Shown: positions 564 to 17,888, numbered from the stretch's first letter. The stretch: 64,000 nucleotides of DNA from Desulfosporosinus acididurans (GCF_001029285.1 NZ_LDZY01000007.1:186001-250000); one strand, 5' to 3'. Numbers and translations: made by a program. Notes: generated by a model from the letters alone, not told the origin.

Positions 564-611
564 ACCACCAATATGTTCCCACAACCCTTGCTGAGGAAGG
601 AGACGAGCCAC

Positions 612-2222: not shown

Positions 2223-2235
2223 GGAGGTTTTATTA

Positions 2236-3777
2236 ATGGCAACAGTAACAGTCATTCCAGCAAAACCGATGCAAGAATTGAAAGGTTTAGAGGCTACAGC
2301 AAAACTAAGAGTTTGCGCTTACGCACGGGTTTCCACGGATAATGAAGAGCAATTATCCAGTTATCAGGCGCAGGTTGAGCATTACACCTCATATATTCAG
2401 AACAATCCAGCTTGGGAATTTGTTGAGATTTTCTCGGATGAAGGAATTAGCGGCACGAACACTAAGAAACGTGAGGGCTTCAACCGCATGATTGATGAGT
2501 GTATGGCAGGTAAGATTGACATGGTCATTACCAAGTCAATTAGCAGATTTGCTCGGAACACTCTGGATACATTGAAGTATGTACGTCAGTTAAAAGAAAA
2601 GGGAGTCGCTATTTTCTTTGAAAATGAGGTCGTTAATACGTTAGATTCCAAGGGAGAATTTCTAATAACTTTGCTCGGAAGCCTGGCACAAGAAGAGAGT
2701 TCCAATTTGTCTCAGATTACGAAGATGGGAATTAGTTACAGGTTCCAAGAGGGTAAGGTTTTAGTTAACCACAATAAATTCCTTGGGTACACCAAGGATG
2801 AACAGGGCCAGTTAGTTATTGTTCCAGAAGAAGCCGAGGTAGTGCAGCGGATTTATCGGGAGTTCTTGGATGGCAAAAGTCCATATAAAATTGCCAGCAA
2901 TCTTCAAAAGGATGGGTTAATCACTGGGGCAGGCGGTACAAAGTGGTATGACAGTACGGTCATTGGAATACTCAAGAATGTGAAATATATGGGCGATGCA
3001 CTGCTCCAGAAAACCTACACGACAGATTTTTTAACAAAAAAGCGTGTGAAAAATACTGGACATGCTGCCCAGTATTATGTCGAGGATAGCCATGAAGCTA
3101 TTATTTCTAAGGAAGAGTTTGCTGCTGTTCAGATGGAATTTGAAAGACGAACGAATATGCGTGGGTATTCCAAGAGTGGGAAGAGCAAGTTCACAAGTGA
3201 TTATGCTTTTTCCGGGAAGTTGTTCTGTGAGAATTGTGGTTCTAAATTTAGGCGTACCAAATGGGGAAAGGGTAAGAATGAGCAGATTGTCTGGATATGT
3301 ATTAATCATCAAACGGGTGGAAATGAAGCTTGTGATATGAAGACTATCAAAGAAAAAGCTTTGGAACAGGCTTTTGTTCGGGTTATGAACAGAATCATAA
3401 TTAAGAGAGAAGCTTATTTAGTAGAAGAGATTAGTTGTGAGGAGAGTGATTATGAGGATATCGATGCCAAGATAGCGGAACTTCAACAAGAGTTGATGAA
3501 TGTGGTGCGGAATAATCAGGAATATTCATGTTTAACTAATGAGATTGAAAGGTTGCAGGTGCATAGGCAGAGGTTGAAAAGTGATGAGACCGAGAAGGCG
3601 TGGAGGGATAGGATGAGAGAAGAGTTCAAGGCCTATCTGGATGCTAGGGACGGCAGTCTGCTGGATAAGTTTGATGGGGATTTGTTCCGAAAGCTGGTGG
3701 AGAAGGTTAGAGTAGAGTCGATGGTGGAGGTGGAGTTTGTATTGAAGGCTGGGATAGAGGTTAGAGAAGTGCTGTGA
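2236..3777 (+). CDS. Large serine recombinase B, copy 1
   Basis: Second member of the tandem pair, behind AAGGAGG. The resolvase domain has YARVST (serine about residue 33), a second conserved region reading ITKSISRFARNT, and a recombinase domain with the motif GTKWYDSTVIGILKN. A CxxC-type zinc ribbon (FCENCGSKF) and a coiled coil follow. Paired large serine recombinases in one operon recall CcrA/CcrB of staphylococcal cassettes and similar clostridial elements; both may be needed for movement. The gene is complete. A close copy lies at 35854 and a 45-codon fragment at 54478. Confidence 0.93.
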   Translation: MATVTVIPAKPMQELKGLEATAKLRVCAYARVSTDNEEQLSSYQAQVEHYTSYIQNNPAWEFVEIFSDEGISGTNTKKREGFNRMIDECMAGKIDMVITKSISRFARNTLDTLKYVRQLKEKGVAIFFENEVVNTLDSKGEFLITLLGSLAQEESSNLSQITKMGISYRFQEGKVLVNHNKFLGYTKDEQGQLVIVPEEAEVVQRIYREFLDGKSPYKIASNLQKDGLITGAGGTKWYDSTVIGILKNVKYMGDALLQKTYTTDFLTKKRVKNTGHAAQYYVEDSHEAIISKEEFAAVQMEFERRTNMRGYSKSGKSKFTSDYAFSGKLFCENCGSKFRRTKWGKGKNEQIVWICINHQTGGNEACDMKTIKEKALEQAFVRVMNRIIIKREAYLVEEISCEESDYEDIDAKIAELQQELMNVVRNNQEYSCLTNEIERLQVHRQRLKSDETEKAWRDRMREEFKAYLDARDGSLLDKFDGDLFRKLVEKVRVESMVEVEFVLKAGIEVREVL

Positions 3778-3799
3778 CAAATGCAAGACTTATTCGAGA

Positions 3800-4687
3800 T
3801 TACTGGTATTTCCTAATAAAGTTCATAAAGGCAAGCAAGGTAGGACAGTAGTGTTGATCTTTGGCTGTTATTAGATAAACCCAGCAGGGCAAAGTAGTTT
3901 CATCACCCTTAACTTTCTGTAGCATCTTGAATGCTAGTTCTTCTTCAACAACTCGTGAGGGCAGAAATGCTATCCCGATACCAGACATAACAAACCGCTT
4001 GATCACTTCAGCATCGGGAATTTCCATAAACAACTTTGTGGTAATGCCCTGTCCTGAAAGATGTTCTTTGATGTTATGATCGGACGAACATTTTTCCCAT
4101 ATGATCAAAGGGTACTTAGAAAACAAAGTATTCATGGGGAGACCATCATCACTGGTAGGGCAGACTAGAATAAGATCGTCTTGGGCGAATCTTTCTATGT
4201 GGACGTTATCGGCTTCCACAGGGCCAAGCAATAGGGCCAGATCCAGTTCTCCTTCTTCAACGGAGCGAGCTATCTGTAAATCGTTATCTATTGTTAGAGA
4301 CACTTTAATGTTGGGAAAGCGGGAGTAAAACTCTTTAAGAATAGAAGGCAGCAAATAGCTTCCCACAATTGAGCTAGCTCCCAGGCGTACTTCCCCGCGC
4401 TCTAAATCATGGAATTGGTCCATCGCTCTACTTGCCTGTTGAGCAAGGATCATAATTCGATCGGCATAGTCATAAAGAGAACGGCCGGCATCAGTGAGAA
4501 TCACCTGGCGGCCTCGCTGGGAAAATAAATCGAGTCCTAGACTCTTCTCCAAGGAGGCTATTTGCCTTGATACTGCAGGTTGGCTTAAATTAAGCTCTTC
4601 CCCGGCCTTGGAATAACTTAAATGCCTGGCAACGGAGTGAAAGAACCTAAGTTGGTTAAGAATTAAATCGGTCAGCTGAACCACCAC
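3800..4687 (-). CDS. LysR-family transcription regulator
   Basis: 295 aa. An N-terminal winged helix-turn-helix (about residues 8-65, with LSQPAVSRQIASLEKSLG) is followed by a periplasmic-binding-protein-like effector domain. It is transcribed divergently from selD; the start codons are about 100 bp apart and the gap holds a dyad, so it probably controls selD and perhaps the selenium cluster. The effector is unknown. Length and domain order are normal for the family. Confidence 0.92.
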   Translation of the reverse strand: MVVQLTDLILNQLRFFHSVARHLSYSKAGEELNLSQPAVSRQIASLEKSLGLDLFSQRGRQVILTDAGRSLYDYADRIMILAQQASRAMDQFHDLERGEVRLGASSIVGSYLLPSILKEFYSRFPNIKVSLTIDNDLQIARSVEEGELDLALLLGPVEADNVHIERFAQDDLILVCPTSDDGLPMNTLFSKYPLIIWEKCSSDHNIKEHLSGQGITTKLFMEIPDAEVIKRFVMSGIGIAFLPSRVVEEELAFKMLQKVKGDETTLPCWVYLITAKDQHYCPTLLAFMNFIRKYQ

Positions 4688-4784: not shown

Positions 4785-5813
4785 ATGCCAAAAGTAAGCC
4801 TTACATCGTATTCTCCCGGTTCCGGCTGAGCTTGTAAAATAGGTCCGGCGGACCTAATGGAAGTGTTGTCGAGTTTACCCAAGGTGGTTGATCCCAAGGT
4901 TTTGGCAGGTCGAGACGAAAATGCTGCGGTTTATAAAATAAGCGATGAACTGGCTGTTGTTCAGACTGTCGATTATATTACACCAGTGGTTGACGATCCG
5001 TACCAATTTGGAATGATTGCAGCTGCTAATTCTATCAGCGATATTTATGCCATGGGAGTCAAACCTGCCTTTGCCTTAAATATAGTGGGTTATCCCAATC
5101 AGACACTGCCCTTAAGTATTTTAGAACAAATTTTAAAGGGTGGAGCTGATAAATCTTCAGAAGCGGGAATATCGATTATCGGTGGTCATTCTGTGACCGA
5201 CCATGCTCCAAAATATGGACTGGTGGTAACTGGTTTCGCTCATCCCGAAAAGCTCATTACTAAGAAGGGTGCGAAGCCGGGGGATGCCTTGGTGTTGACC
5301 AAACCACTGGGTATTGGTGTCATCACCACTGGTATTGACCGCCGCCTAACCACGCCTGCGATGGAAATAGCTGTTATAGAGGAGATGTACCGCCTGAACA
5401 GGGATGCTTCAGAAGCTATGGTTGAAGTTGGTGTCTCGGCCTGTACCGACGTAACTGGCTTTGGTTTATTAGGTCATTTGTCCGAGATGCTCTCCTCAAG
5501 TGGTGTCGGAGCGAAGATTTACAACTCTGATGTCCCTTTGATCACCGGTGCTATAGAAATGGCCGAAGCTGGGGCCTTTTCTGGAGGGGCGCATAACAAC
5601 TTTCGCTATATGAGGGACAAGGTGACATGGGAGAATTCAATTTCGAAAGAAATGCGAATGATTCTTTGCGATCCACAAACTTCTGGCGGGCTCTTAATAG
5701 CTGTTGATCCTCAAAAGTTAGATACATTCTTGAACACACTTGGGCAGAAAAATGTAGATGCTCGTGAGATCGGAACGATAACAAAGGAAAAAACGTTTCG
5801 AGTGTTAGAGTAG
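4785..5813 (+). CDS. selD: Selenide, water dikinase with selenocysteine (TGA at 4827)
   Basis: SelD makes selenophosphate from selenide and ATP, the selenium donor for selenocysteine. The frame from ATG 4785 reads SYSPGSG-U-ACKIGPADL, with TGA as codon 15 in the place of the catalytic Cys/Sec of the family. After the TGA the frame stays open to 5813 (342 aa, normal length). AIR-synthase-like N and C domains are recognisable, e.g. ACTDVTGFGLLGHL and CDPQTSGGLL. AAAGGAGG lies 13 bases before the start. A conventional gene caller starts at 4857 and loses the active site. It supplies selenium for the selenoproteins downstream. Confidence 0.95.
4840..4856 (+). promoter_or_regulatory. SECIS-type hairpin of selD
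   Basis: TAGGTCC-GGC-GGACCTA: a perfect 7-bp stem with loop GGC, starting 11 bases after the TGA. Distance and GG loop match bacterial SECIS elements recognised by SelB. Confidence 0.85.
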
Positions 5814-5884
5814 AGAAGAACATTACGAAAAGAAAAAAACCAATGAAATTATATATCTTATGAATGTAAACGGGGGAATTATAA

Positions 5885-6145
5885 ATGGTTATCATTAAAG
5901 TGTACTCAAACAGTCCCGCAGGCCTTCGCTGAAGCCGTCTCTTGCAAATGGCCCGTGCGGTCAGCGAAAAGTTTGAGCCTGATGTGAAAGTCGATGTCAT
6001 TTACAAAGGCACCGTGGACATTGTCCTTAATAACGAGGAGGTTATCAGCCCTCCCAACCTTTATGTTGATGATGTAGAACTTGGAAAAGAGGCTACCCAG
6101 GATCAACTGGAAACGGTTGTCGCACGGAAGCTGGGGAAAAAATAA
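5885..6145 (+). CDS. Thioredoxin-like selenoprotein 1 (TGA at 5930)
   Basis: 86 aa. The frame reads MVIIKVYSNSPAGLR-U-SRLLQMAR, then a helix and VISPPNLYVDDVELGKE, i.e. beta strand, Sec at the N-terminus of helix 1, and the cis-proline loop SPP of a thioredoxin fold. The resolving residue two positions after Sec is not Cys (USRL), so it probably works as a monothiol/selenol carrier. GGGGGA precedes the ATG. The paralogue at 8133 has TGA at exactly the same codon (16), which makes recoding far more likely than mutation. It recalls the family I know as SaoT. Partner likely in the same cluster. Confidence 0.88.
5949..5963 (+). promoter_or_regulatory. SECIS-type hairpin, thioredoxin-like 1
   Basis: TGGCC-CGTGC-GGTCA, five pairs including one G-T, starting 16 bases after the TGA. 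It is weaker than the others in the cluster, but sits at almost the same distance as in the paralogue. Confidence 0.55.
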
Positions 6146-6188
6146 GCGTTTTTGTTGCACCGCCATTTTTTATAGACAGGGGGGCTCT

Positions 6189-6455
6189 ATGAATTGAAAT
6201 TATGAATGGGATGAGTATAGTGGGTATCAAATAATAGCTAGAAATATTCTTGGAGCTCCAGATAAAGCTGATATGAAAATGATTCGGTATACCTATGCTC
6301 CAAATGTTAATGTAGAGATTATTTATTAAAGTGATTTGCCTGACATACCTACTCTACCAAATATAGCAGTGGATGACAGGGTACTAGGTAAAGAAGTTAC
6401 AGCGGAAAAATTAGAAGAAGCCATTAAAGATTTATTACTTGAATCAATTTCATAA
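6189..6455 (+). pseudogene. Chimeric remnant: J-domain start joined to thioredoxin-like end
   Basis: One continuous frame from ATG 6189 (GGGGGGC ahead) with an in-frame TGA (6195) and TAA (6327). Codons 18-35 resemble the start of the J-protein at 8994 (ARNILGAPDKADMKMIR against ARKILGVPDDADVKMIR). The rest matches the end of the thioredoxin-like protein at 8133 (YAPNVNVEII ... VLGKEVT). It joins two neighbours' sequences and has no selenocysteine position or SECIS, so it is read as a recombination scar. The following ~200 bases also resemble the 3' flank of the 8133 gene. Confidence 0.7.
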
Positions 6456-6660
6456 ATGGTTTTTTTGATGAAGCAACTACTATATATAGTGGTGGTGATT
6501 TTATTTTCAGCTATATATGGTACTGTCAAGTCGGTTTTTAGGCATTATGAAATTGATTCACTTGACTGAGAATTATATATTTGAAAAGTTCCAAATCATT
6601 TTGTTATGGAATTTGCTCTCAAAGAATGAATGAAATTTATCCTGATAGTGGGGAATTTAT

Positions 6661-7059
6661 ATGGTCACTTGGTTTGAAATTTTCGATAAGTTATTACACC
6701 CTCACCGTAAAAAACAGGAAAAATTAATGTCCAGAATGATAGAATACAGGGAATTATCGTCTATAGCGTTGGAAAATGAAAACCAGGGCATGTACTCTTT
6801 GTTACAGAGGGAATTGAACGAGATGTTCTGCGAATATCTAACCTGGTCTTTTTTGGACGGAATCGGTTTTCTAATTCCTCACGTCCTAATCATGGGATTA
6901 ATTAGTATCTGGTGGCCGTACTTTGCTCTGCCATTTAAACTTCCCGTAATTGACAATCACGCTTACGTGATTGTCTGGTATCCACTTATAATAATCATTT
7001 ATTATGTAGGTCACCGGTTACTGCGTAGAAATACTGGGTCAATGTTCAAGCTTACCTGA
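6661..7059 (+). CDS. Small membrane protein with cytoplasmic helix
   Basis: 132 aa. An N-terminal charged helical part (about 1-65, KKQEKLMSRMIEYRELS) is followed by two or three membrane segments (LIPHVLIMGLISIW; YVIVWYPLIIIIYYVG). A basic juxtamembrane coiled stretch followed by Trp-rich membrane helices is reminiscent of DUF106/EMC3-like proteins, but this is weak. GTGGGGAA precedes the ATG. It sits directly before the TSUP transporter and may be its partner. Confidence 0.75.
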   Translation: MVTWFEIFDKLLHPHRKKQEKLMSRMIEYRELSSIALENENQGMYSLLQRELNEMFCEYLTWSFLDGIGFLIPHVLIMGLISIWWPYFALPFKLPVIDNHAYVIVWYPLIIIIYYVGHRLLRRNTGSMFKLT

Positions 7060-7101
7060 TGACAAGTTAAGATCGGATGAGATTATTGGAGGTGTACACG
7101 T

Positions 7102-8058
7102 ATGTTCTTTCATGTAGCGGGAGTTACCGTCAATCCTATTGTTATTATCATCTGGATGGCTTTTGTCGGTTTTGTATTTTCTACCATTGGTGCCGCCGGC
7201 GGAATTTTGGCGGGGGTAGGTCACATCACTATCTTCGGAATGAAAAAAGCCAATACTATTAAACCTATGAACCAGATTCTAACTTTAATCAGCCCAATCA
7301 TTTCTACGCCCTTATATTTACGTGAAAGACGATTGGTGGTCCCGGCAGCTGTAAGTTTAGGTTTAGGCGGCATCATTGGGGCGTTGCTTGGTTCTTGGTT
7401 TTCTACCAATTTCCTGAAAGAGATGTCAGCCTATCAACCGATCTTTGGCTTAATTACGTTTGTAATTGCCGGGCGTATGTGGTATGAAATGACCCCAGGA
7501 TTCCGGGAAAAACAACAGAAAGTAAAAAAAGCAACCAAAGCTTTTGAAGAAAAGGTCAAAGAACTAAAGGCTGCCGGCAAAATGAATGAGATCAAGGAAA
7601 TCGGCGTTCAATTTAGTGAAATGGGAATAAACAACACCTTTACATTTGCCGGAGAATCCTTTCGTTACAATGTCTTTGCCCCCTTTATTGCCGGAGTGGT
7701 TGTTGCAATTATCTCAGCAGCTCTGGGTGTGGGCGGCGGCTTCCTTTTGGTGCCGTTCCTGAGCAGTGCTCTTGGTTTCCCAATGTTCATCGTTGCAGGT
7801 ACTTCTACTATGTCTATCGTAATTTCTTCTCTGACAAGTATCAGTAACTATCTACGCATGGGAAGTCAATTAGATTTACCTATGGTGGGTTTCGAACTAG
7901 TTGGCATTCTGATTGGTTCTTACTTGGGACCAGTCCTTTCCAAACATATTAAAGGCATTTACCTGAAAGGCTTTCTGGCCGTGGTGCTTACTTATATTGG
8001 AATTGGCTATGTCTTTGGCCCGATGATTCAGCATGCTTTTGGGTTTTGGATTATTTAA
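7102..8058 (+). CDS. TSUP-family (TauE/SafE) transporter
   Basis: 318 aa. Two halves of about four membrane segments each: STIGAAGGILAGVG near the start and AALGVGGGFLLVPFL in the second half are the paired glycine-rich motifs of the TSUP family. A charged loop of about 60 residues (KQQKVKKATKAFEEKVKELK) separates the halves. GGAGGTG precedes the ATG. TSUP members move sulfite, sulfoacetate and similar anions, usually outward. Flanked by two selenoproteins, it may export or import the substrate of this cluster; it would correspond to what I recall as SaoE. Confidence 0.9.
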   Translation: MFFHVAGVTVNPIVIIIWMAFVGFVFSTIGAAGGILAGVGHITIFGMKKANTIKPMNQILTLISPIISTPLYLRERRLVVPAAVSLGLGGIIGALLGSWFSTNFLKEMSAYQPIFGLITFVIAGRMWYEMTPGFREKQQKVKKATKAFEEKVKELKAAGKMNEIKEIGVQFSEMGINNTFTFAGESFRYNVFAPFIAGVVVAIISAALGVGGGFLLVPFLSSALGFPMFIVAGTSTMSIVISSLTSISNYLRMGSQLDLPMVGFELVGILIGSYLGPVLSKHIKGIYLKGFLAVVLTYIGIGYVFGPMIQHAFGFWII

Positions 8059-8132
8059 TGACGGATATACTAAGAATCTTGTCCAAGTATCATTAGTCAA
8101 ATGATATTTAAATTTAAAAGGGAGGGCTATTT

Positions 8133-8372
8133 ATGGTAACTATCAAGGTTTTTTCTAATCGTCCTTCTGGAAAAACCTGAACTCGGCTTATCAGTCTAGC
8201 CGGTACGGTTAGGGATGCCTACGCTCCAAATGTTAATGTAGAGATTATTTGTAAAGGTGATTTATCTGACATGCCTACTCCACCTAATATATCGGTGAAT
8301 GACAAGGTGCTAGGTAAAGAAGTTACAACGGAAAAATTAGAGGAAGCCGTTAGAGATTTATTATTTGATTGA
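8133..8372 (+). CDS. Thioredoxin-like selenoprotein 2 (TGA at 8178)
   Basis: 79 aa: MVTIKVFSNRPSGKT-U-TRLISLAG ... MPTPPNISVNDKVLGKEVT. TGA is codon 16 as in the paralogue at 5885, and the downstream frame is collinear, including the PPN cis-proline loop. GGGAGGG precedes the ATG. The pair lies either side of the membrane-protein genes, so they may serve two steps or two partners of one redox relay. The frame carries no other defects. Confidence 0.87.
8196..8212 (+). promoter_or_regulatory. SECIS-type hairpin, thioredoxin-like 2
   Basis: CTAGCC-GGTAC-GGTTAG, six pairs (one G-T), loop beginning GG, 15 bases after the TGA. Confidence 0.7.
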
Positions 8373-8439
8373 AATTATATATTTGAAAGTTCCAAACTAT
8401 TTTGTTATATAATTTGCTCATAAAGAAGGGAGGACTTCT

Positions 8440-8691
8440 GTGGGGTTCAGCATAGCAGAACAGTTTAACCTACTGGATTCATTAACTCCTATGAGAATAG
8501 ACATTTTAATAAGAATATCCTTAAATCCTGGGTTATCTAATGATATAAGACTAATTGCTCTAAGTTTGTTAATTTACAATAATGCTGTAGATTTCTCCCT
8601 TTTAGAAGATATCCTATTACAAATGAAGATGACAGAGGATTTAGATACACTTTATGAGCAACTTAAGCTAACTATGGATGCTCATATCTAA
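8440..8691 (+). CDS. Hypothetical helical protein, 83 aa
   Basis: GTG start behind GGGAGG. The protein is all-helical by composition (NLLDSLTPMRIDILIRIS ... LEDILLQMKM), without cysteines or membrane segments. Unrecognised. It lies between the second thioredoxin-like gene and the J-protein, on the same strand, so it may be a small accessory of the cluster. Confidence 0.6.
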   Translation: MGFSIAEQFNLLDSLTPMRIDILIRISLNPGLSNDIRLIALSLLIYNNAVDFSLLEDILLQMKMTEDLDTLYEQLKLTMDAHI

Positions 8692-8778
8692 CTTTTTTAT
8701 TCGCTCGCGGAGTTTTTTTAATGGTCTCCACAATAACAATACTCATATAGTCTCAGCTCACCAGCATATGGATGGATA

Positions 8779-8894
8779 GCGGTTTTGTGTAACTGACGTG
8801 ATGCATGAAGCTACCGCAAAAAACCTTTCTCAGAGATGTGGAGGGTTTTGGCCTAAGGTTATTCAGGCTTCTTGTCAATTCCGAAAGACGGAAT
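8779..8894 (+). ncRNA. String of four hairpins ahead of the J-protein gene
   Basis: In the gene-free stretch 8692-8993: GCGGT/ACCGC (8779/8813), AAAACC/GGTTTT (8820/8844), GCCT/AGGC (8851/8865) and ATTCCG-AAAGA-CGGAAT (8878-8894) follow one another. There is no T-tract. It does not match a riboswitch class I can name. It could be a structured leader or a chance set of small stems. Confidence 0.35.
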
Positions 8895-8993
8895 GATGCC
8901 AAAATAAAGCTAGTTACTTAAGCACATGACAGGGGTGAAGTTGGTATCATATCAGGTGCTGAAAAGTGTTATTTTGGAAGTTGGAGTTTTAGT

Positions 8994-9302
8994 ATGAGTA
9001 CAGAGTCTATTGAGAAAAAGGCACGAAAAATACTGGGGGTGCCAGATGACGCTGATGTGAAAATGATCCGGCAAGCGTACAGGGAATTGGCTAAAAAGTA
9101 CCACCCCGATATCAATCCGAATGATAGAAGTTTACCAAAAAGATTTATTCTAATTACAGAGGCTTATGAAATTCTCAGCAGTGGAAAGAATGCCGGGAGA
9201 CATAGTGGCTTGTCCGCAACAGATGATATTGAAAATAGACCACCTTTTGGTGAGAAACTTTACTGGGATTGGTGGAAGGAAAGATTTGGGAATTTATTCT
9301 AA
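8994..9302 (+). CDS. J-domain (DnaJ-like) protein, short
   Basis: 102 aa. The J domain covers about residues 8-65, with the HPD tripeptide in KKYHPDINPND and the family opening ARKILGVPDDADVKMIRQAYRE. There is no zinc-finger or client domain; a Trp-rich tail (LYWDWWKERFGNLF) ends the protein. J proteins stimulate Hsp70. A dedicated one here may help assemble or protect a metal or selenium protein. Its first residues recur in the scar at 6189. Confidence 0.88.
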   Translation: MSTESIEKKARKILGVPDDADVKMIRQAYRELAKKYHPDINPNDRSLPKRFILITEAYEILSSGKNAGRHSGLSATDDIENRPPFGEKLYWDWWKERFGNLF

Positions 9303-9650
9303 CAAAACCTTGTTGTCTGTATTTTTACAAGTTTGAGTGACATTGTAAAACTAACTTTTGTTTTTGTTAAAGTTCAGCTTTGTATAAAAGATGAAATTTG
9401 TCAATGGCAAATAGGGATCACTTTGAAATCGAAAATCTCTCAATTTTACATATCAAGCACTAAGGGCAAAACAATCAATTCGTCCCAAATTACCCGAATG
9501 GGTAGGTATGATCGAAGTGGAATGGGCTTAAAGAGCGAATCTTTAAAAGTGCAATCAAGGATTTAAGTTAGAAAAGGGCAGAATGTATTAGAAATCAGCT
9601 CGTGTTAATAAAGATTACGCTAACTTAAATAATGGGAGAGGATTTTTATT
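9303..9650 (+). other. No convincing gene
   Basis: Between the J-protein and the double-Sec gene. A 77-codon frame starting at TTG 9333 is open, but has no ribosome site and an unstructured composition; I do not accept it. GGGAGAGG at 9634-9641 belongs to the next gene. Confidence 0.5.
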
Positions 9651-11024
9651 ATGTCAGATCTTAATAATGTAACTATTTCTAGTTCCAGTGATTGCTGAGG
9701 CAGTTCATCAGGTGCTGGTCAGCACAATGAATCTCAAACGGAGAACTGCCAAATTTGCGGAGGTTCATTAGAATACTTCAATTCGGGTCGGGAACTAGTT
9801 TGCGTTCAATGTGGCAAAACCGAAATCGCCAACATTTTCTGTCCTAATGGGCACTATGTATGCGATGAATGTCATGGGAAAGGCCTCTTTGGTGGTGTCA
9901 AAGAATATGTTTTGACCAGTAACTCGGCAAACCCTTTTGAAATAGCCGAGTATCTAATGGCTCAAAATAACATACCCATGCTTGGTTGTGAAAATGCTTG
10001 GATAGCAGCAGGAGCTTTGATGGCAGCACTCAAGAACGAAGGAACGATTGGGGTAACCAATGAACAAATTGTTGAAGCCTTGAATCGAGCCAAGAGACAA
10101 GCCATCGGAGGTTATTGCGGGCTGACAGGGGTATGTGGAATTGTTCCAGCTATTGGGGCCTGTTTTAGTGTTATTTTAGGTGCGGCTTGTCCTAAAGATC
10201 AAGAAACGGCAATGACCATGAAAGTCGCCGCAAGAATTGTTGACAAGATTGCTGACGAAACCGGTCCCTGTTGCTGTAAGAACTTTGTGAGAAACGCTTT
10301 GAGTGAAGCTGTTATTTTTGTTAAAGAGTATTTTAATGTTTCTTTGCCTTCACCCAGTAAATCAATGATATGTACTTACAGTTCACGTCACCCTCATGGA
10401 TGCAGAGAGTCTAAATGTTCCTATTTCGAGAGGAACGAGACACCTCAAAATCTTAAGATGGAGATGTCGGAGAAGGCTATTTTGAACTTAAGTCTAAATA
10501 AATATGATGATCTTGTACGTAAAGCTGCTGAACTAGGAATTGAAGAAGCAAAGATAATAGATACCAGCACTATATCGGTGGCCGAATGGGCACAATGGAA
10601 ATGTCAATATGGCTGTGCTTTTTACGATAAAGGTGCTTTTCATCCACCCCTGGCACCAAAAGCTGAAGAGACAAAACGGGTCCTTCAAGAATACGAGAAG
10701 GCGTTCCTATTAACGGGTCCTAACGGACCTGAGCTTTCCAGACAGGCCATTAAACTTGAGCATGCAGCCTATTCGCTGGGATATTATAAGGCATTTTCGT
10801 TACTCGCCCTTCCTTTTGGTGGGGCTCCTACATGACAAAAGGATAGTAATGTGACTCAGGCTGAGTCACCCGTTTCACCAAAAAAGGATCAAGAGGTTAG
10901 ACCTTTGATGGAAGCCTGCGGAATAGATGTGTTTAAGACGGCCAGAAATAATGGTTTTAACATTGATACTAAAAAGGAAACGTACGGCAAGTGGAATTAC
11001 TTTGCCCTCGTGTTACTTGAATAA
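9651..11024 (+). CDS. DUF5714-DUF2284 selenoprotein with two selenocysteines
   Basis: 457 aa read through TGA at 9696 (codon 16) and 10833 (codon 395). Order: short tail SSSSDC-U-GSSSG; Cys-rich zinc-ribbon part (CQICGG, CVQCG, CDECHGKG, about 30-80); DUF5714 (about 100-260, with CGLTGVCG and ETGPCCCKNF); DUF2284 (about 285-457). In the second TGA region APT-U-QKDS aligns with GPCLRCKEC of the plain DUF2284 protein at 52563, so Sec replaces a conserved Cys, and MEACGIDVFKTARNNGF resumes afterwards. Both TGA codons have SECIS-like hairpins. The function is unknown. It looks like the core catalyst of the cluster; I recall such a protein as SaoD. Confidence 0.87.
9712..9725 (+). promoter_or_regulatory. 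SECIS-type hairpin, first TGA of the double-Sec gene
   Basis: GTGCT-GGTC-AGCAC, perfect 5-bp stem, loop beginning GG, 13 bases after the TGA at 9696. Confidence 0.8.
10851..10869 (+). promoter_or_regulatory. SECIS-type hairpin, second TGA of the double-Sec gene
   Basis: GTGACTCA-GGC-TGAGTCAC, perfect 8-bp stem with loop GGC, 15 bases after the TGA at 10833. It encodes an insert (NVTQAESPV) absent from plain DUF2284 proteins, as if the reading frame had been adapted to carry the RNA element. Confidence 0.88.
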
Positions 11025-11105
11025 TCACAGGAAACAAGGTAGTTTAACTGGGGCATCCTAATGGGGTGCTCTTCTTAATAAACAAAGTTGGGAAGGTGGA
11101 AACAC

Positions 11106-12167
11106 TTGATACCTCCGTTTATCGCAACAGGCATTGGCAGCTTACCAAATACCGACCCAGTTGAGGCAGTTCAAATGGTGAAACAGTTCTTCCCAGACAT
11201 GCCTCATTGGCCACAGCTACCGAGTAATAATCCTGCCGAAGGGTTAATAGGCCAATATATTGCTCCACTAGTCCGTCTCGGTTTGGTGGATAAAGAATCC
11301 GGCAGTGTACCCTTCTTCACTCGGCAATCCGATTGGTTAGATCGTCTCACGGAGTTTTACGACTTGTATCTGAGAATTTCCGAAGGTGACCACGAAGCAT
11401 TAGATTTCTTTGGCTTTCCTCGTGAATATGCCAAAGGATTTTGGACATTCATCGATGAGTTGTCTAACGGTGATTTTACTCAAGCTAAATTTATTAAAGG
11501 TCAGGTTACATGGCCAATCACTCTGGGCCTACAACTCACCGACCAAAATAGAAGGTCGTCGTACTATGATGAGGAACTCCGGGATATCGTTGTGAAAACC
11601 ATAGCCTTGCAAGCTGAGTGGCAAGTTAAAACCTTAAGCAAATTCAGCAAACCGGTCGTAATTTTCATCGATGAACCAGGACTTTATGGTTACGGGCAAT
11701 CTACCCATATAACTCTCAATAAACAGGAAATCGTTGATGAACTTAACACTATTGCAGATATGATTCATTCAGCCGGTGGTACTGCAGGGATACATGTATG
11801 TGCCAGTACCGATTGGGGAATGCTGCTTGAATCTAGGATTGATATCCTAAACTTCGATGCTTTTGAGTACTTCTCAACCTTATCCCTGTATCCCGATCAA
11901 ATACAGCATTTCCTGCAAAGAGAGGGAGTTTTGGCCTGGGGAATCGTTCCGACGTCCGAAAAGGTTTTGGCTTATGATGTGGATCAATTGACCCAATTGC
12001 TTAACAGTCAGATTGAGACGTTGGTTGGCAAGGGGGTAGACAGGGATGCTCTGCGTAAACAGATTATGATTACTCCAAGCTGTGGAGTGGGTACTCTCAC
12101 CCCAGATACCGCTGAAAAAGTTTACAGTGTGACTAAAGAATTATCTGTCAAATATCATCTGGTTTGA
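11106..12167 (+). CDS. MetE/UROD-superfamily methyltransferase-like protein
   Basis: TTG start chosen because GGAAGGTGG lies 7 bases before it; 353 aa. A TIM-barrel protein of the cobalamin-independent methionine synthase/UROD superfamily: GIGSLPNTDPVEA at the start, then IDEPGLYGYGQ, GIHVCASTDW and MITPSCGVGTL. HxC plus a later Cys are the usual zinc ligands that activate a thiol in this superfamily, so it may demethylate or methylate a thiol, selenol or corrinoid. It is last gene before a terminator and so shares the transcript of the selenoproteins. Substrate unknown. Confidence 0.82.
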   Translation: MIPPFIATGIGSLPNTDPVEAVQMVKQFFPDMPHWPQLPSNNPAEGLIGQYIAPLVRLGLVDKESGSVPFFTRQSDWLDRLTEFYDLYLRISEGDHEALDFFGFPREYAKGFWTFIDELSNGDFTQAKFIKGQVTWPITLGLQLTDQNRRSSYYDEELRDIVVKTIALQAEWQVKTLSKFSKPVVIFIDEPGLYGYGQSTHITLNKQEIVDELNTIADMIHSAGGTAGIHVCASTDWGMLLESRIDILNFDAFEYFSTLSLYPDQIQHFLQREGVLAWGIVPTSEKVLAYDVDQLTQLLNSQIETLVGKGVDRDALRKQIMITPSCGVGTLTPDTAEKVYSVTKELSVKYHLV

Positions 12168-12214
12168 GTGTAAGAATGATAAATCGTTTCGGGGTACTAA
12201 CTATCAGTGAAATG

Positions 12215-12250
12215 CCGGTCGAAGTTGTGGTCTTCGACCGGTCCTTTTTA
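12215..12250 (+). terminator. Terminator of the selenoprotein operon
   Basis: CCGGTCGAAG and CTTCGACCGG form a perfect 10-bp stem (12215-12241) with a 7-base loop, followed by TCCTTTTT. Confidence 0.92.
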
Positions 12251-12297
12251 TTATTACGCTCTTTAATTTTTTAACTTAAAAAGAGGTAAAATAGATC

Positions 12298-12329
12298 TTG
12301 ACTCTGTACCTAACTATAGACTTTATAAT
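12298..12329 (+). promoter_or_regulatory. merR promoter with 20-bp spacer and MerR dyad
   Basis: TTGACT (12298-12303) and TATAAT (12324-12329) are 20 bp apart. The imperfect dyad ACTCTGTA-CCTAAC-TATAGACT (12301-12322) fills the spacer. An overlong spacer with a dyad is the signature of promoters distorted by MerR-family activators, so merR and the metallochaperone are probably autoregulated. Confidence 0.75.
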
Positions 12330-12348
12330 AGTCCTAGGGAGGTGACCA

Positions 12349-12744
12349 ATGAAGGGCTTGAAAATAGGTCAAGTGGCAAAAGAAGCCTGTGTCAATATAG
12401 AAACGATTAGATACTATGAAAGATTAAAATTAATTTCTGAACCGGAACGAACAGAATCCGGTTATCGGTTTTTTTCTCCTGAGGTAGTTCAGCGAATTAG
12501 GTTCATTAAACGCTCGAAGGATTTGGGTTTTACTCTTGCAGAAATTCAAAAATTACTTGCTTTGACTGAGAGCGTAGGAAACACATGTGATGAAGTTAAG
12601 GAATTTGCAACCCTGAAACTGAATGAGATAGAGCTTAAAATACGGGACTTGCAAAAAATCCAAAGCGTTATGCAAGACTTGTTGGGCAAATGCGCCGAAG
12701 GACAAAACAGTGTTTGTCCAATCATAAAAAGGTTACAGGAATAA
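12349..12744 (+). CDS. merR: MerR-family regulator, mercury type
   Basis: 131 aa. Winged helix at 1-70 (LKIGQVAKEACVNIETIRYYE), dimerisation helix, then metal-binding cysteines in TCDEV, GKCAEG and SVCPII. Three cysteines at these places are the Hg(II) ligands of mercury-sensing MerR proteins; a wider thiophilic-metal response is possible. GGGAGGTG precedes the ATG. It lies between the selenoprotein operon terminator and the Sec-containing metallochaperone. Confidence 0.88.
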   Translation: MKGLKIGQVAKEACVNIETIRYYERLKLISEPERTESGYRFFSPEVVQRIRFIKRSKDLGFTLAEIQKLLALTESVGNTCDEVKEFATLKLNEIELKIRDLQKIQSVMQDLLGKCAEGQNSVCPIIKRLQE

Positions 12745-12777
12745 GTGACTAATTCCTGGGTTAAAAGGAGTGTTATC

Positions 12778-13239
12778 ATGCTAATTGGGCTATCAAATAA
12801 TTCAAAAGTTATTCCCTCATGTCCTGTTTGTGGCGGGATCGGCCAAAAAGTGCGTCAAGTAACAGTTGAACATCAGGTAAAACCGGATGTAGAGGTTGAA
12901 GAAGAACAATTATTCCTGTGTAGAACCTCTGAATGTGAAGTTGCCTATTATTCTGAAGATGGAAAGAAAACAATTCTTCAAGATCAATTGATCAACAAGA
13001 TCTGGTTTAAGAATGTCCCACCCCCGGTTCCCATTTGCTACTGTGCCAATGTTACCGAGGAGGAAATTCTGCATCATGTGGCAGTCGCACAATGTTGCTC
13101 TACGTTAGAAGATATAAAGAGACATACTGGGGCCAATACCGGATGTGAATGCGCCACGAAAAACCCTGCCGGTGCCTGATGTTCAGCTGTTGTGCAATCG
13201 GTGATTGCCAAAGGTCTTGAGATGAGAAGAACAATCTAA
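12778..13239 (+). CDS. CopZ-like metallochaperone with selenocysteine (TGA at 13177)
   Basis: 153 aa; ATG at 12778 behind AAAAGGAG. The N-terminal half holds a CPVCG zinc site and a CRTSEC pair. The C-terminal half is a BFD-like [2Fe-2S] domain with CYC (in PICYCANVTEEEIL), then NTGCEC and NPAGA-U-C. In the relatives I know this last motif is NP(S/A)G-x-C-C, so TGA takes the place of the first cysteine. The frame continues for 20 codons (SAVVQSVIAKGLEMRRTI). A gene caller would stop at 13179 and lose the last ligands. It probably hands a soft metal on, under control of the adjacent merR. Confidence 0.86.
13194..13208 (+). promoter_or_regulatory. SECIS-type hairpin of the metallochaperone
   Basis: GCAATC-GGT-GATTGC, perfect 6-bp stem, loop GGT (as in the E. 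coli formate dehydrogenase element), 14 bases after the TGA. Confidence 0.87.
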
Positions 13240-13366
13240 AGCTGTGTATTTTAAAAAATTAAGAAAATTGTTTTTTATTAAAGGTATTTTAAAATTAATG
13301 TCGAATATTTGAACATATAGAAATACGTAAAGGAATTTAAGGAAAATTTAATTTTAAATAACATTA

Positions 13367-13418
13367 GACCATGGAGGTCAGCCTGGGTAAAACAGGAACG
13401 ATTCTCCACGGTCTTTTT
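13367..13418 (+). terminator. Long hairpin with T-tract before cooT
   Basis: GACCATGGAG (13367) pairs with CTCCACGGTC (13404) with one G-T. An inner CCTG/CAGG stem lies at 13382/13393, and TTTTT follows the outer stem. It ends about 20 bases before the cooT start, so it may be an attenuator or riboswitch expression platform rather than a plain terminator. The rest of 13240-13366 is AT-rich with nothing recognisable. Confidence 0.6.
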
Positions 13419-13437
13419 ACGTTAGGAGGGAAAAAGG

Positions 13438-13671
13438 ATGTGTGAAACCAATGTCTATATCAGAACAGGGGACGACCAAGAAGAATTGTTTCTTGAACAA
13501 GTCGACATAATTGAACCTTCTGAAGCAGGGCTACGGTTAGTCGATATCTTTGGCAAGCAAAGATTTATTAACGCAAGAATTAAGGATATGAATCTACTTA
13601 ACCACCGAATTGTTTTGGAGAAATTACAGACCATCGCTGCTAAAAAGTGTATAAATGGTTCAAAGGTTTGA
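13438..13671 (+). CDS. cooT: CooT-family nickel-binding protein
   Basis: 77 aa. It begins MCETNVYI and continues with the CooT fold pattern (EELFLEQVDIIEPSEAGLRLVDIFGKQ, read in two parts). CooT dimers bind one Ni(II) through the N-terminal Met-Cys. The family serves nickel delivery, for example to CO dehydrogenase. GGAGGGAAAAAGG precedes the ATG. It stands 14 bases before a NiCoT permease, which supports a nickel role. Confidence 0.85.
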   Translation: MCETNVYIRTGDDQEELFLEQVDIIEPSEAGLRLVDIFGKQRFINARIKDMNLLNHRIVLEKLQTIAAKKCINGSKV

Positions 13672-13685
13672 GGGGGAGTAAGTAT

Positions 13686-14705
13686 ATGAAAAATACAACT
13701 GCAACAACTGTCATTAACCGTCCAAAATGGCTACGTTACGGTGGAGCTGTTCTTGGAATACACCTTTTAGGCCTGTCTCTTTTATTCCCGGCAATAAGAG
13801 ACTATCCGCAATTGATAGGGATTGCCTTGTTAGCTTATACATTAGGATTACGTCATGCTTTTGATGCTGACCATATAGCGGCTATTGATAACACTGTGCG
13901 AAAAATGATGCAGCAGAAGCAAGAACCAACGGGGGTAGGCTTCTTTTTCTCGATCGGTCACTCTTCAGTCGTTTTTATAATGGCATTGGTGACTGCTTTT
14001 TCAATGGCTTGGGCCAAGGACAATATCCCACAGCTTCAAACCATTGGTGGCCTAATTGGAACAGCAGTCTCAGGAGGGTTCCTTCTATTGATTGGACTAT
14101 TTAACCTATATATCTGGTTTGATATTTATCGATTGTTCATAAAAATGCATAGAGGGGAAATGGATGAAGGGAATTTGGAGCAACTCCTTTTAAACCGTGG
14201 CTTTATATCTCGGTTTTTTGGACCTCTGTACCGATTTATTAGTAAAAGTTGGCATGTATATCCGCTTGGATTTCTCTTTGGCTTAGGATTTGATACAGCA
14301 TCGGAAGTAGCTTTGCTGGCCATTTCTGCTAATGCCGCTAGTCAAGCAATGCCTTTCACCACGATTTTATCGTTACCGATTTTATTTGCTGCCGGCATGA
14401 GCCTAATGGATACCGTCGACGGGGTTTTTATGACGACTGCCTATAACTGGGCCTTCTCTACACCGCTTAGAAAGGTTTATTACAATTTATCTGTGACCGG
14501 TATATCGGTTGTAGCTGCCTTGCTTATTGGGTTAATCGAATTAGCCCAAATTATGATTCCGAAACTAGGACTTACAGGTGGAATCTGGAGATGGATACAG
14601 AATCTTAATTTTGGTGGGATTGGTTATATACTGGTTGGGCTTTTCGTATTAGCGTGGGGAGTCTCGTTCCTATTTTGGAAGGTATTAAGGTTGGAGAATG
14701 CCTAA
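13686..14705 (+). CDS. NiCoT nickel/cobalt permease
   Basis: 339 aa, about eight membrane segments. The signature LRHAFDADHIAAIDN (HX4DH motif) is in segment II, and GLGFDTASEVALL and MSLMDTVDGVFM are the other two family motifs. This is high-affinity Ni(II)/Co(II) uptake (HoxN/NixA/NicT type). ATG 13686 is chosen because GAGGGGGAG precedes it. Co-transcribed with cooT. Nickel or cobalt could feed a corrinoid or nickel enzyme linked to the cluster. Confidence 0.94.
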   Translation: MKNTTATTVINRPKWLRYGGAVLGIHLLGLSLLFPAIRDYPQLIGIALLAYTLGLRHAFDADHIAAIDNTVRKMMQQKQEPTGVGFFFSIGHSSVVFIMALVTAFSMAWAKDNIPQLQTIGGLIGTAVSGGFLLLIGLFNLYIWFDIYRLFIKMHRGEMDEGNLEQLLLNRGFISRFFGPLYRFISKSWHVYPLGFLFGLGFDTASEVALLAISANAASQAMPFTTILSLPILFAAGMSLMDTVDGVFMTTAYNWAFSTPLRKVYYNLSVTGISVVAALLIGLIELAQIMIPKLGLTGGIWRWIQNLNFGGIGYILVGLFVLAWGVSFLFWKVLRLENA

Positions 14706-16330: not shown

Positions 16331-16460
16331 CTAACCCTCAACCCCAAATACCCGCAATGAAAAAAACCCCCAGCCCCCCGTCAACCACCGAACTCCTTAA
16401 ATCCCGCAGGATGGGATGTGGTTGCCTGGTGGATACTGGGGAAGGTGGAGGGGCAGTCTG
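16331..16460 (+). repeat. R1 repeat, copy 1
   Basis: C-rich left arm (CCTCAACCCCAAATACCC), core AATCCCGCAGGATGGGATG type, then a G-rich right arm (GGGGAAGGTGGAGGGG). Imperfect fold-back of about 130 bp placed just before the next small gene. Confidence 0.8.
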
Positions 16461-16517
16461 ATTAGGCGGTATTGCTCGTTTGTAGGATTTAAGTTTGAAA
16501 TTTCGAGAGGTGAAAAA

Positions 16518-16946
16518 ATGTCAGAGATGATTAAGCTTAAGAATAATATAGGGTTTAATGAATTAGAAGAAAAATTGAGAACATTGACGGACGATTTCGG
16601 AATGAGCACAGAATGCCTATCGAATTTGTTGGGAGTAAAAAATGATGGACATAAGTTTGAAATACCAACAGGCTATGAATTGCATTCTTTTCTGTTCTCA
16701 CTGCTAATGTTAGACAATATTGTAAATGAAGAACCAGATTTTAAATTCAAAGCATTTTTAGAAGTGCTTATTGAAGTGCATAAGATAAGTGCTAATACTA
16801 TTGCAAGATTTGCTAAAATTAAAGAGCAGGATGTTCTAGATTTTATTAATGACACTAACACAGTACCAATTGAGATAAAGTATAGACTTGCATCTGTCAT
16901 TATGACATTAAGATTTATATTCAAAGCAGTTGAGCCAAAAATATAA
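16518..16946 (+). CDS. Hypothetical protein with HTH-like repeats
   Basis: 142 aa; ATG 16518 behind GAGAGGTG. Two stretches resemble helix-turn-helix units (FGMSTECLSNLLGVKND and ISANTIARFAKIKEQDVLDF), the second reminiscent of XRE-like folds. No enzyme motif. Flanked by R1 upstream and R2 downstream. Possibly a small regulator. Confidence 0.65.
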   Translation: MSEMIKLKNNIGFNELEEKLRTLTDDFGMSTECLSNLLGVKNDGHKFEIPTGYELHSFLFSLLMLDNIVNEEPDFKFKAFLEVLIEVHKISANTIARFAKIKEQDVLDFINDTNTVPIEIKYRLASVIMTLRFIFKAVEPKI

Positions 16947-17029
16947 ATTCAGGGAGAGATACTGCTCAATATTCTGATGTTATGCATTAGAATGGAACTC
17001 CAGTCCTGTTCCGAACAGTGCAACCCGCC

Positions 17030-17240
17030 AAGCTGGTGTTCAAGTTATAGGATAAATACCCCCCACCCATGAAAAACCAAATAATCTAAACGGCTTTGCG
17101 GGAATGTAATCCAGGGCGTGTTGCTCTGGATTTATACAATTTGTCGAGGTACGGTGGTATAATTAGGAAAGAAGAGCGGTTAGAACTGGCCCGTACACCA
17201 ATTCCGTCAGTTGGCGGACAGCTCAACGTGGCAATGTTCC
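17030..17240 (+). repeat. R2 repeat, copy 1 (terminator plus promoter-like module)
   Basis: Terminator: AATCCAGGGC (17108) pairs with GCTCTGGATT (17123). Then TTATACAATTTG ... GGTATAATTAGG gives TATACAA-like and TATAAT boxes. Then CCAATTCCGTCAGTTGG, a small palindrome. The same order recurs at 23.9, 28.5, 57.9, 58.4 and 63.7 kb. Confidence 0.75.
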
Positions 17241-17315
17241 GGACAATATGATCGATAGTTATTTGGAGGGAAAGCTGGATGGGTATAGCGGCTCAATATG
17301 AGGGATGGGATAATA

Positions 17316-17651: not shown

Positions 17652-17704
17652 TTTCTTCTATATTTATAGAAGGCCATTTTCAATTCAGATCCTAGCCATT
17701 TAGC

Positions 17705-17825: not shown

Positions 17826-17888
17826 GGGGAATTGGTCATATGAATACGGATGATTAACATTATCACTAATGTGGAGAGTGATTAGAAG

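Follow-up and report, generated by a model that had tools for sequence, protein, structure and literature searches.

The question raised by this locus is whether six in-frame TGA codons encode selenocysteine (Sec) and, if they do, whether the genes that carry them serve one pathway. The locus lies in a stretch of 64,000 nt, here called the window, which comprises bases 186001–250000 of contig C7 in the 4.64-Mb genome of the anaerobe Desulfosporosinus acididurans. Five genes with six predicted Sec sites are found there within 8.5 thousand bases (4785–13239), namely selD, two genes for small thioredoxin-like proteins distantly related to TsoC, the gene for the DUF5714–DUF2284 double selenoprotein MbdU, and a gene for a CopZ-type protein. 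The initial annotation of this sequence had proposed recoding at all six TGAs and a single selenium-dependent pathway. For the cluster as a whole, we regard use of UGA as Sec in these five genes as close to certain, and the genes appear to form two or three modules that adjoin one another at this locus.

On re-translation, all six TGAs proved to be in frame, at 4827 in selD, 5930 and 8178 in the two thioredoxin-like genes, 9696 and 10833 in the DUF5714–DUF2284 gene, and 13177 in the CopZ-like gene. Ten cluster proteins were scanned against NCBIfam (hit lists at E <= 0.01) and Pfam, and family profiles match across the TGAs. The SelD profile TIGR00476 (379.6 bits over residues 6–311, cut-off 125) and the MbdU profile NF045648 (789.3 bits over residues 9–457, cut-off 600) are well above their cut-offs. 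The CopZ_Nterm_CU profile NF045877 covers residues 14–148 of the CopZ-type protein at 112 bits (cut-off 190), and this protein carries the GxUC motif. Both thioredoxin-like proteins match the TsoC profile NF045708 below its cut-off of 45, with 24.8 and 36.4 bits.

Genomic loci used for comparison are labelled L017 to L201. Of these, L017, L018 (the window itself), L062 (a paralogue) and L201 are from the window's own genome, L155 is from the same genus, L081 is from Desulfosporosinus sp. BG and L198 is from another family. The initial annotation had placed each TGA where relatives have a catalytic or ligand Cys or Sec, and the aligned columns bear this out, holding TGA or Cys rather than random residues, with few exceptions (Ala, Gln and Leu). 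TGA was found in 4/4 aligned rows for selD, in 6/6 and 8/8 rows for TsoC-like proteins 1 and 2, respectively, and in six of seven rows for the CopZ-type protein, where the other row has Cys. The Sec16 column of MbdU has 76 rows (64 TGA, 10 Cys, 1 Ala and 1 Gln) and the Sec395 column has TGA in 8 of 9, with Leu in a stand-alone DUF2284 paralogue from inside the window. The numbers of independent cases are lower than these row counts, because some places were entered twice and some rows come from the window's own genome. Outside this genome, the selD TGA is present in L155, L198 and L197 (a broken copy), and the TsoC-like TGA in L155, L156, L196, L197, L198 and L199, which represent four genomes (G019, G124, G432 and G371), with Cys in L200. 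Among the 35 rows used for the Sec16 hairpin (see below), 33 are from other genomes and have TGA, and the remaining two are from the window's genome.

Hairpins were taken as the lowest-energy single fold after each TGA, and 700 other TGAs on the same strand of the window served as controls. The apical loop begins 17–23 nt past the TGA at all six sites, although a spacing of 16–24 nt is uninformative when used alone, as it is found at 300 of the 700 controls. A loop starting with GG occurs at four of the six sites versus 31/700 controls, and the combination of a GG loop, a loop start 16–24 nt from the TGA and a dG <= -8.5 kcal/mol at the same proportion of sites versus 1/700. The initial annotation had reported a small hairpin after every TGA, with GG-starting loops at five of the six. 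As bSECIS-like elements, four hairpins are strong and the one after 8178 comes near to them; there, the GG is partly inside the last closing pair, and opening one pair yields a GG loop, which brings the number into agreement with five of six. At 5930, the loop does not start with GG and 31 % of 250 sampled TGAs have an equally or more stable fold, making this hairpin indistinguishable from chance. In the L155 relative, the same loop reads GGTAC and the GG is gone in the window (CGTGC).

Counterparts of the other hairpins are found elsewhere. The sequence of the selD hairpin is identical in L155, where a longer fold has lower energy, and stems related to the TsoC-like 2 hairpin are present in L155 (loop GTA) and in L197 and L198 (loop GGTCA). 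The Sec395 hairpin is equally placed in L049 (loop GTC), L053 (GGT) and L085 (GGC). Stem and loop of the CopZ-type hairpin are identical in L051 and L081, and the lowest-energy fold differs in L052.

The MbdU Sec16 hairpin could be aligned in 35 gapless rows, including the window and the same-genome paralogue L062, after L108, which has in-frame stops and belongs to another family, was removed from 36 candidates. Pairing across the five-pair stem is kept in 97.7 % of cells. Changes on both sides of a pair were seen in 13 cells versus 4.2 +/- 1.6 in shuffled alignments (0/500 shuffles as high), and stems slid from their position gave at most 1 such cell; these figures are to be read with the caveat that the codons are protein-constrained and that related sequences can exceed such shuffles. 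The number of pairs with a double change and further pair types was not above the shuffles (314/500 as high). In both double-changed pairs, one side falls on the third base of a codon (His or Gln). The covarying hairpin is added evidence, at the level of sequence, for recoding in this one family.

The machinery for Sec insertion, which the initial annotation had proposed looking for, is complete in the genome. A selC gene (tRNA-Sec; 64.9 bits, cut-off 47), selB on contig C3, approximately 1 kb from selC (379.6 bits), and selA (565.6 bits) are all present. A second selD (L017) adjoins selA, is 50 % identical to the cluster selD and likewise contains a TGA; the genome therefore has two Sec-type selD genes. 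Both observations that the initial annotation had named as refuting recoding, a genome lacking selB/selC and random residues at the TGA columns, turned out the other way. Within the window, a scan with Rfam gave 0 matches at the gathering level and ARAGORN found no tRNA.

The alternative is normal termination at the TGAs, with the reading frames beyond them being accidents or pseudogenes. The 5930 hairpin, being no better than chance, is the sole point in its favour, and it is opposed by homology across the TGAs, the TGA/Cys columns, the covarying hairpin and the complete Sec machinery; we consider it extremely improbable. Site 5930 is the weakest of the six and, judged individually, is probably Sec-encoding. 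A seventh site, TGA 12165 in the methionine-synthase-like gene, was considered and rejected. The two nearest homologues have a TGA one residue later and a distant one ends with TAA five residues later, and TGA 12165 is read as a stop because the homologues end within about five residues. TGA 8370 is taken to end TsoC-like gene 2. The features of the cluster and its flanks are listed in Table 1.

Table 1. Genes and other features of the selenoprotein cluster (positions in the window; bits, bit score of the profile match)
Position	Strand	Feature	Evidence or remark
3800..4687	-	LysR-type regulator	Divergent from selD; PF03466/PF00126
4785..5813	+	selD, selenide water dikinase, Sec15 (TGA 4827-4829)	TIGR00476
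4840..4856	+	selD hairpin	Loop GGC 17 nt after TGA, -12.2 kcal/mol
5885..6145	+	TsoC-like thioredoxin-fold selenoprotein 1, motif NSPAGLRU (TGA 5930-5932)	NF045708 24.8 bits
5949..5963	+	Hairpin after TGA 5930	Weak, loop CGTGC (no GG), -6.7 kcal/mol
6187..6456	+	Decayed remnant, J-domain-like start fused to C-terminal part of third TsoC-like copy	Repeat match, TAA inside
6661..7059	+	Hydrophobic protein upstream of TauE	No Pfam/NCBIfam match at E <= 0.001
7102..8058	+	TauE/SafE (TSUP) membrane transporter	PF01925 107.4 bits
8133..8372	+	TsoC-like thioredoxin-fold selenoprotein 2, motif NRPSGKTU (TGA 8178-8180)	NF045708 36.4 bits
8196..8212	+	TsoC-like 2 hairpin (TGA 8178)	Loop (G)GTA, -11.9 kcal/mol
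8440..8691	+	83-aa protein	No Pfam match; one NCBIfam match, 15.7 bits, far under cut-off
8994..9302	+	J-domain (DnaJ-type) protein, 102 aa	PF00226 64.1 bits
9651..11024	+	MbdU, DUF5714-DUF2284 double selenoprotein, Sec16 (TGA 9696) and Sec395 (TGA 10833)	NF045648 789.3 bits, PF18978 178.5, PF10050 94.7
9712..9725	+	MbdU Sec16 hairpin	Loop GGTC, covariation in 35 rows
10851..10869	+	MbdU Sec395 hairpin	Loop GGC, 8-bp stem
11106..12167	+	Core methionine-synthase (MetE C-terminal)-like protein	NF002119, 33.2 bits versus a cut-off of 258
12214..12242	+	Terminator-like hairpin closing MbdU-methyltransferase-like unit	11-bp stem, T tail
12298..12329	+	MerR-type promoter, TTGACT - 20 nt - TATAAT, imperfect dyad	Read by eye
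12349..12744	+	MerR-family regulator, Cys80, Cys115, Cys123	TIGR02051 best of 19
12778..13239	+	CopZ-N-terminal-type [2Fe-2S]/zinc protein, GAUC (TGA 13177-13179)	PF18423 62.2, PF04324 27.1, over cut-offs
13194..13208	+	CopZ-type hairpin	Loop GGT, -9.2 kcal/mol
13438..13671	+	CooT-type nickel accessory protein	PF10133 82.1 bits
13680..14705	+	NiCoT nickel/cobalt transporter	TIGR00802 390.4 bits, cut-off 333.05

The first of two proposed adjacent modules, module A, has the composition LysR – selD – TsoC-like – TauE – TsoC-like. The best of 57 NCBIfam models for the LysR-type regulator is LysR_Sec_metab (NF040786; 193.8 bits, below the cut-off of 250); the L155 regulator, likewise divergent from its selD, also scores best with this model (160 bits). 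A LysR subfamily for selenium metabolism has been proposed from comparative genomics, according to the accessible part of the source (PMC5322559). An AlphaFold model of TsoC-like protein 2, built with four sequences, has a pLDDT of 89.7 and a predicted thioredoxin/SelW-like fold, with the Sec in the first turn of helix 1 and Gly in place of the first Cys. TM scores against structures in the Protein Data Bank (PDB) were 0.66–0.70 for SelW-like proteins and up to 0.79 for thioredoxins, and Foldseek gave no match in the PDB at E <= 0.001. TsoC-like proteins are rarer than full MbdU (see below). The NF045708 model matched in 1/298 relatives, which is the window's own genome, a two-sequence TsoC-like profile in 4/298, and a four-sequence profile in 8/398 genomes of the phylum, four with TGA (this genome, G124, G371 and G432) and four weaker matches without it. 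No TsoC-like relative was found in viral contigs.

Three loci show TsoC-like genes next to selD elsewhere. L155 has a divergent LysR gene ahead of selD(Sec), which is followed by a TrsS-type radical SAM gene that is truncated (198.9 bits over positions 61–263 of 441) and then by a TsoC-like(Sec) gene. The row at 7839–12707 of L198 consists of selD(Sec), a TrsS-type radical SAM gene, an ArsM/DVU_1556-like methyltransferase gene, a gene for a NapH-like ferredoxin membrane protein and a TsoC-like(Sec) gene; TrsS is the best match of the radical SAM protein (363.4 bits, cut-off 490), and its frame crosses a TGA into the methyltransferase. In L197, a TsoC-like gene is directly downstream of a broken selD. 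On its simplest reading, module A looks like the outcome of stepwise loss from an operon of the L198 type, though this comparison of gene orders draws on three loci, which are few. The pairing is not general, because there was no selD match in the stretches searched at the other TsoC-like places (L156, L196, L199 and L200). Those stretches with selD–TsoC pairs that were searched had no MbdU match. A full-length TrsS gene without TGA (676 bits) is found in the window's genome at L201 (contig C16), where XdhC-like, DVU_1551, DVU_1553, DVU_1556, DVU_1555 C-GCAxxG-C-C and diclust_near_Sec genes and a molybdopterin aldehyde oxidoreductase gene (NF045668, 1684 bits) belong to the same cluster.

The second module, module B, consists of MbdU and the methionine-synthase-like gene, followed by MerR and the CopZ-type gene. 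Full MbdU is rare. Only 3/298 relatives (including this genome) have a match over the cut-off, and 131/298 have some match, those listed being mostly to one half. The window protein shares 63 % identity with the two further full-length copies that were found (L049 and L050), both of which have an isochorismatase-type gene beside MbdU (7792–8388 and 8177–8728, respectively). Among plasmids, DUF5714 relatives are present in seven records, each covering less than 80 % of MbdU. The arsenite-methyltransferase selenoprotein model NF041536 aligns through its DUF2284 tail with the C-terminal half of MbdU (254.6 bits). Sequence comparison of MbdU with the PDB gave three matches, all at chance level, and a predicted model (mean pLDDT 64) gave nitroreductase/MMACHC-like matches (Z 7.6 and 5.5) that are a lead only. 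A paralogue of the C-terminal half, the stand-alone DUF2284 protein without TGA mentioned above, is encoded at 52563–53033 and has Leu at the Sec column.

In L081, DUF5714 is fused to a CMD/AhpD domain with two further TGAs, resembling the tail that NF041537, the model for the ArsM_AhpD selenoprotein, describes (117.4 bits). Downstream lie a methionine-synthase-like gene (84.7 % identical to that in the window), a gene for a corrinoid protein of the MtrA type (134.7 bits to PF04208) and a CopZ-type selenoprotein gene (78 %). Separately, DUF5714–CMD/AhpD-like proteins (L081:9827–11125, L086:9953–11122, L026 and L031) were seen to have three candidate Sec residues, in CU, CEPU and a near-C-terminal ECKTU.

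A His-x-Cys (HVC), an Asp and a Cys were noted by eye in the methionine-synthase-like translation. According to the part of PMC7857596 available, the zinc ligands of core methionine synthases are His/Cys/Glu-or-Asp/Cys, and corrinoid proteins, MtrA among them, are thought to be the methyl donors of these enzymes. The terminator-like hairpin that follows is weak taken alone, as a scan of the window found 7 such sites versus 10.1 in shuffles. The promoter listed ahead of merR has a spacer that a promoter scan with 16–18 nt spacers cannot detect. The MerR protein scores 147.1 bits against the mercury MerR model TIGR02051, below the cut-off of 150.85, and the three Cys listed are present besides Cys14. 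In the CopZ-type protein, which has zf_CopZ and BFD domains, the GAUC motif ends at Sec134–Cys135. The CooT and NiCoT genes directly after it point to nickel or cobalt. A NiCoT 72 % identical to that in the window is encoded in L155, approximately 1 kb from the TsoC-like gene and beside a CbiJ/CobK gene.

Neighbourhoods were compared for 43 non-redundant loci with a DUF5714-type MbdU relative, some of them on short contigs. For the part drawn from a scan of named genomes, the best 27 of 80 loci were used (L075–L101), and L085 lacks a match to the N-terminal half. ArsR-type open reading frames (ORFs) are within 8 kb of the DUF5714-type gene in nine loci (L049, L050, L057, L058, L067, L080, L081, L086 and L089), which include both other loci with full MbdU, and an SBF-family transporter ORF is as near in four (L057, L058, L067 and L089). 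We take SBF to be the Pfam family that includes ACR3 arsenite pumps. A set of URO-D methyltransferase, B12-binding and RACo ORFs was found at the same range in four loci (L060, L066, L087 and L088). These three counts are of ORF similarity clusters, named with Pfam from one representative each (two for ArsR), and carry no background rate. None of selD, either TsoC-like gene, TauE, the 83-aa gene, DnaJ, MerR, CooT or NiCoT was found in any of the 43 loci.

The surroundings are possibly a mobile region, judging from copies of recombinase genes. Pairs of large serine recombinase genes at 573–3816 and 34191–37410 are related copies in direct orientation (repeats 458–537/34069–34148 at 94 % identity and 548–847/34166–34465 at 89 %), and a further recombinase gene is at 53467–54372. 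The decayed third TsoC-like copy (6283–6450 repeats 8209–8376 at 85 % identity, with a TAA within the match) shows past rearrangement, and recombination may have brought the cluster together or moved it. Other repeats were also seen in the window. Dispersed repeats of approximately 60–100 bases with the core TTCAATCCCGCAGGATGGGATG are at 16369–19944 and 57177–63886 (nine copies in the largest family), and two adjoining genes at 45910–50200, by eye for cell-surface repeat proteins, contain 96 %-identical repeated blocks of approximately 300 bases.

For function, we infer a scheme in which the five selenoprotein genes at 4785–14705 belong to two adjacent modules, A handling selenium and B acting on a soft metal(loid) or on a methyl group bound to a metal, and we consider the chances of this reading to be evenly balanced. 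Module A would secure and handle selenium, with SelD producing selenophosphate, the LysR protein sensing selenium status, and the GxxU thioredoxin-fold proteins carrying or reducing a soft element (Se or a metal(loid)) via a single selenolate. It may be a reduced form of an operon for SelD, radical SAM (TrsS), ArsM/DVU_1556-type methyltransferase, ferredoxin and TsoC. In module B, the N-terminal Cys–Sec pair and Cys-rich DUF5714 domain of MbdU would bind an ion and pass it on, the DUF2284–Sec domain could contribute to redox or transfer chemistry, and a methyl group would be taken up or handed on by the zinc methyltransferase-like protein, probably via a corrinoid protein. The ArsR counts speak mildly for the metal reading. 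A more specific version, in which the locus would specify a system for selenium-dependent organometal methyl transfer that has not been described under that heading (MbdU holding a soft metal(loid) with its Cys–Sec pair and its C-terminal domain that bears Sec, the MetE-like zinc enzyme and a corrinoid protein moving methyl, the MerR-controlled CopZ-type protein delivering or removing the ion, and Sec-SelD and the GxxU carriers supplying selenium) appears unlikely to us.

Several observations weigh against the two-module scheme. No arsenic or mercury resistance enzymes were found among the ten scanned cluster proteins; the link to arsenic consists of shared domains and ArsR neighbours, and that to mercury of the sub-threshold MerR score. 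The methionine-synthase-like protein is far under the cut-off of its nearest model and has no relative by sequence in the PDB. Beside MbdU in L049 and L050 there is neither a methionine-synthase-like nor a CopZ-type gene. Among the 43 DUF5714-type loci, the methionine-synthase-like gene is near four (one match partial) and a CopZ-like gene near four (one a distant Cys form), with both in two and neither in 37. A Pfam scan of 107 neighbours within approximately 1.2 kb and of at least approximately 110 aa, chosen from 234 by distance and length, which left out most short genes, gave no family above 3/107, and the metal-type families listed were only ArsP_2 and zf_CopZ, with two each. Enrichment of a metal-resistance family directly beside the DUF5714 genes was thus not seen in this set, although the wider clustering of ORFs did bring out ArsR-type ORFs. 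Nor do these comparisons show the single pathway of the initial annotation, as 37 of the 43 loci have neither partner, nine window genes are in none of them, and the selD–TsoC stretches are without MbdU.

The same figures bear on the possibility that true selenoprotein genes have come together without a common pathway, by chance gathering of selenium, nickel and metal genes in a recombinase-rich region. The serine recombinase pairs and the recombinase at 53467, the decayed TsoC-like copy fused to a J-domain-like start, the absence of nine tested genes from all 43 loci, and the terminator-like hairpin that separates the MbdU unit from MerR are all in line with it, but the selD–TsoC and DUF5714–methyltransferase-like–CopZ pairings recur in other genomes, and we hold it to be possible, if somewhat doubtful. 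Methyl-selenium metabolism, in which methylated selenium compounds would be stripped of methyl by the methionine-synthase-like protein with a corrinoid partner and the Se recycled to the cluster SelD, weighs against the metal reading. Corrinoid methyltransferase clusters have been linked with selenium genes, and one enzyme performs methylcobalamin:selenide methyl transfer, as described in the portion of PMC10418091 available, although that enzyme is from another family (SCMT homologues). In the window, selD, a methyltransferase-like gene and selenoprotein genes are side by side, an MtrA-type corrinoid gene is present in L081, and NiCoT is found both here and in L155 (beside CbiJ/CobK). Against it, the cluster itself showed no corrinoid protein and selD is near 0/43 DUF5714 loci; this explanation seems improbable.

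Two further explanations were weighed. Module A could supply selenium to a molybdenum hydroxylase or help to mature it, and be unconnected with metals. The TrsS-type gene found with selD and TsoC in L155 and L198 belongs, in this genome, to the aldehyde oxidoreductase cluster L201, but no molybdenum hydroxylase gene is beside the TsoC-like gene in L155 or L198 among the ORFs inspected (no family search of the whole stretch was made), and we give this only a small chance. The selenoproteins could instead be peroxide or thiol reductases for redox defence, with their own SelD. A predicted thioredoxin fold carrying one selenolate would suit such a role, as would the possibly nitroreductase-like DUF2284 half (Z up to 7.6 in a low-confidence model). 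That match is below the reliability level of the tool, GxxU lacks a second redox Cys, and no reductase partner or peroxidase family was found among the scanned proteins, so that we think redox defence quite unlikely.

Most of the families present are already catalogued. The available part of a 2026 review (PMC13188914) lists MbdU, TsoC, TrsS radical SAM, ArsM/DUF2284, ArsM/AhpD and two CopZ-type forms, and attributes MbdU and TsoC to Haft and Tolstoy 2025. No description of the function of MbdU or TsoC was found in the literature covered, with the family papers (Haft and Gwadz 2023; Haft and Tolstoy 2025) outside it. According to the same part of the review, the Tso operon consists of three selenoprotein genes, with more selenoprotein genes close by. 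The window proteins resemble TsoC (NEPxGxxU-motif selenoprotein, NF045708) in length, GxxU position and a near-whole-profile match, but both are below the cut-off, the motif is N[SR]PxGxxU, and there are two copies, one directly after selD. The cluster is not classed as Tso because TsoA and TsoB models are absent from the hit lists of the ten cluster proteins and the TsoC-like pair is under the cut-off. Genome-wide, TsoA gave no match here, and only 3/150 genomes matched, none over the cut-off, so that there is no true positive control; TsoB gave fragments only (best 59.5 bits versus 805). The initial annotation had also drawn a comparison to Sec-assisted organometallic (SAO) neighbourhoods, with which the cluster shares several selenoprotein genes together and a soft-metal theme. 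This resemblance was not supported, and the cluster is not classed as SAO because no NCBIfam Sao model matched its ten proteins; among named families, MbdU fits, and TsoC does so distantly. A genome-wide search for SaoL gave no match and is uninformative, as no control genome matched either.

MbdU itself (metal-binding double selenoprotein, NF045648) is matched in domain order, in both Sec positions and in a score over the cut-off; the two other full copies, at 63 % identity, have different neighbours. The ArsM/DUF2284 and ArsM/AhpD selenoproteins (NF041536 and NF041537) have related C-terminal Sec domains, but the arsenite methyltransferase domain is replaced by DUF5714 in the proteins fused to them here. 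The CopZ-type protein is like CopZ-family (2Fe-2S) selenoprotein form 1 in its zinc/BFD domains and in GAUC, which fits GxUC, given as the motif of that form in the available part of PMC13188914; unlike it, the window gene sits behind MerR, and its score to NF045877 (Csac_0668 CopZ_Nterm_CU) is below the cut-off. The methionine-synthase-like protein has the single-catalytic-domain length and, by eye, the His-x-Cys/Asp/Cys order of the core methionine synthases MesA and MesB, as these are described in the accessible part of PMC7857596, but scores only 33.2 bits to its nearest model. Selenium genes near corrinoid methyl-transfer genes recall the type 1 mlp gene clusters, as far as these are covered in the part of PMC10418091 available, from which the cluster differs in methyltransferase family and in having no corrinoid protein seen.

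What these comparisons add is the gene combination and two divergent TsoC relatives, which look new. The DUF5714 scaffold bears either a DUF2284–Sec or a CMD–Sec tail, each related to tails of arsenite methyltransferases, and DUF5714 proteins can accompany a corrinoid protein and a methionine-synthase-like enzyme or lie near ArsR genes. TsoC-like genes are repeatedly beside selD, with apparent steps of operon loss. The link to soft-metal and methyl chemistry is reasonable but unproved, and it turns a list of selenoproteins into a testable proposal, namely soft-metal or methyl-metal chemistry by selenolate ligands with a local selenium supply.

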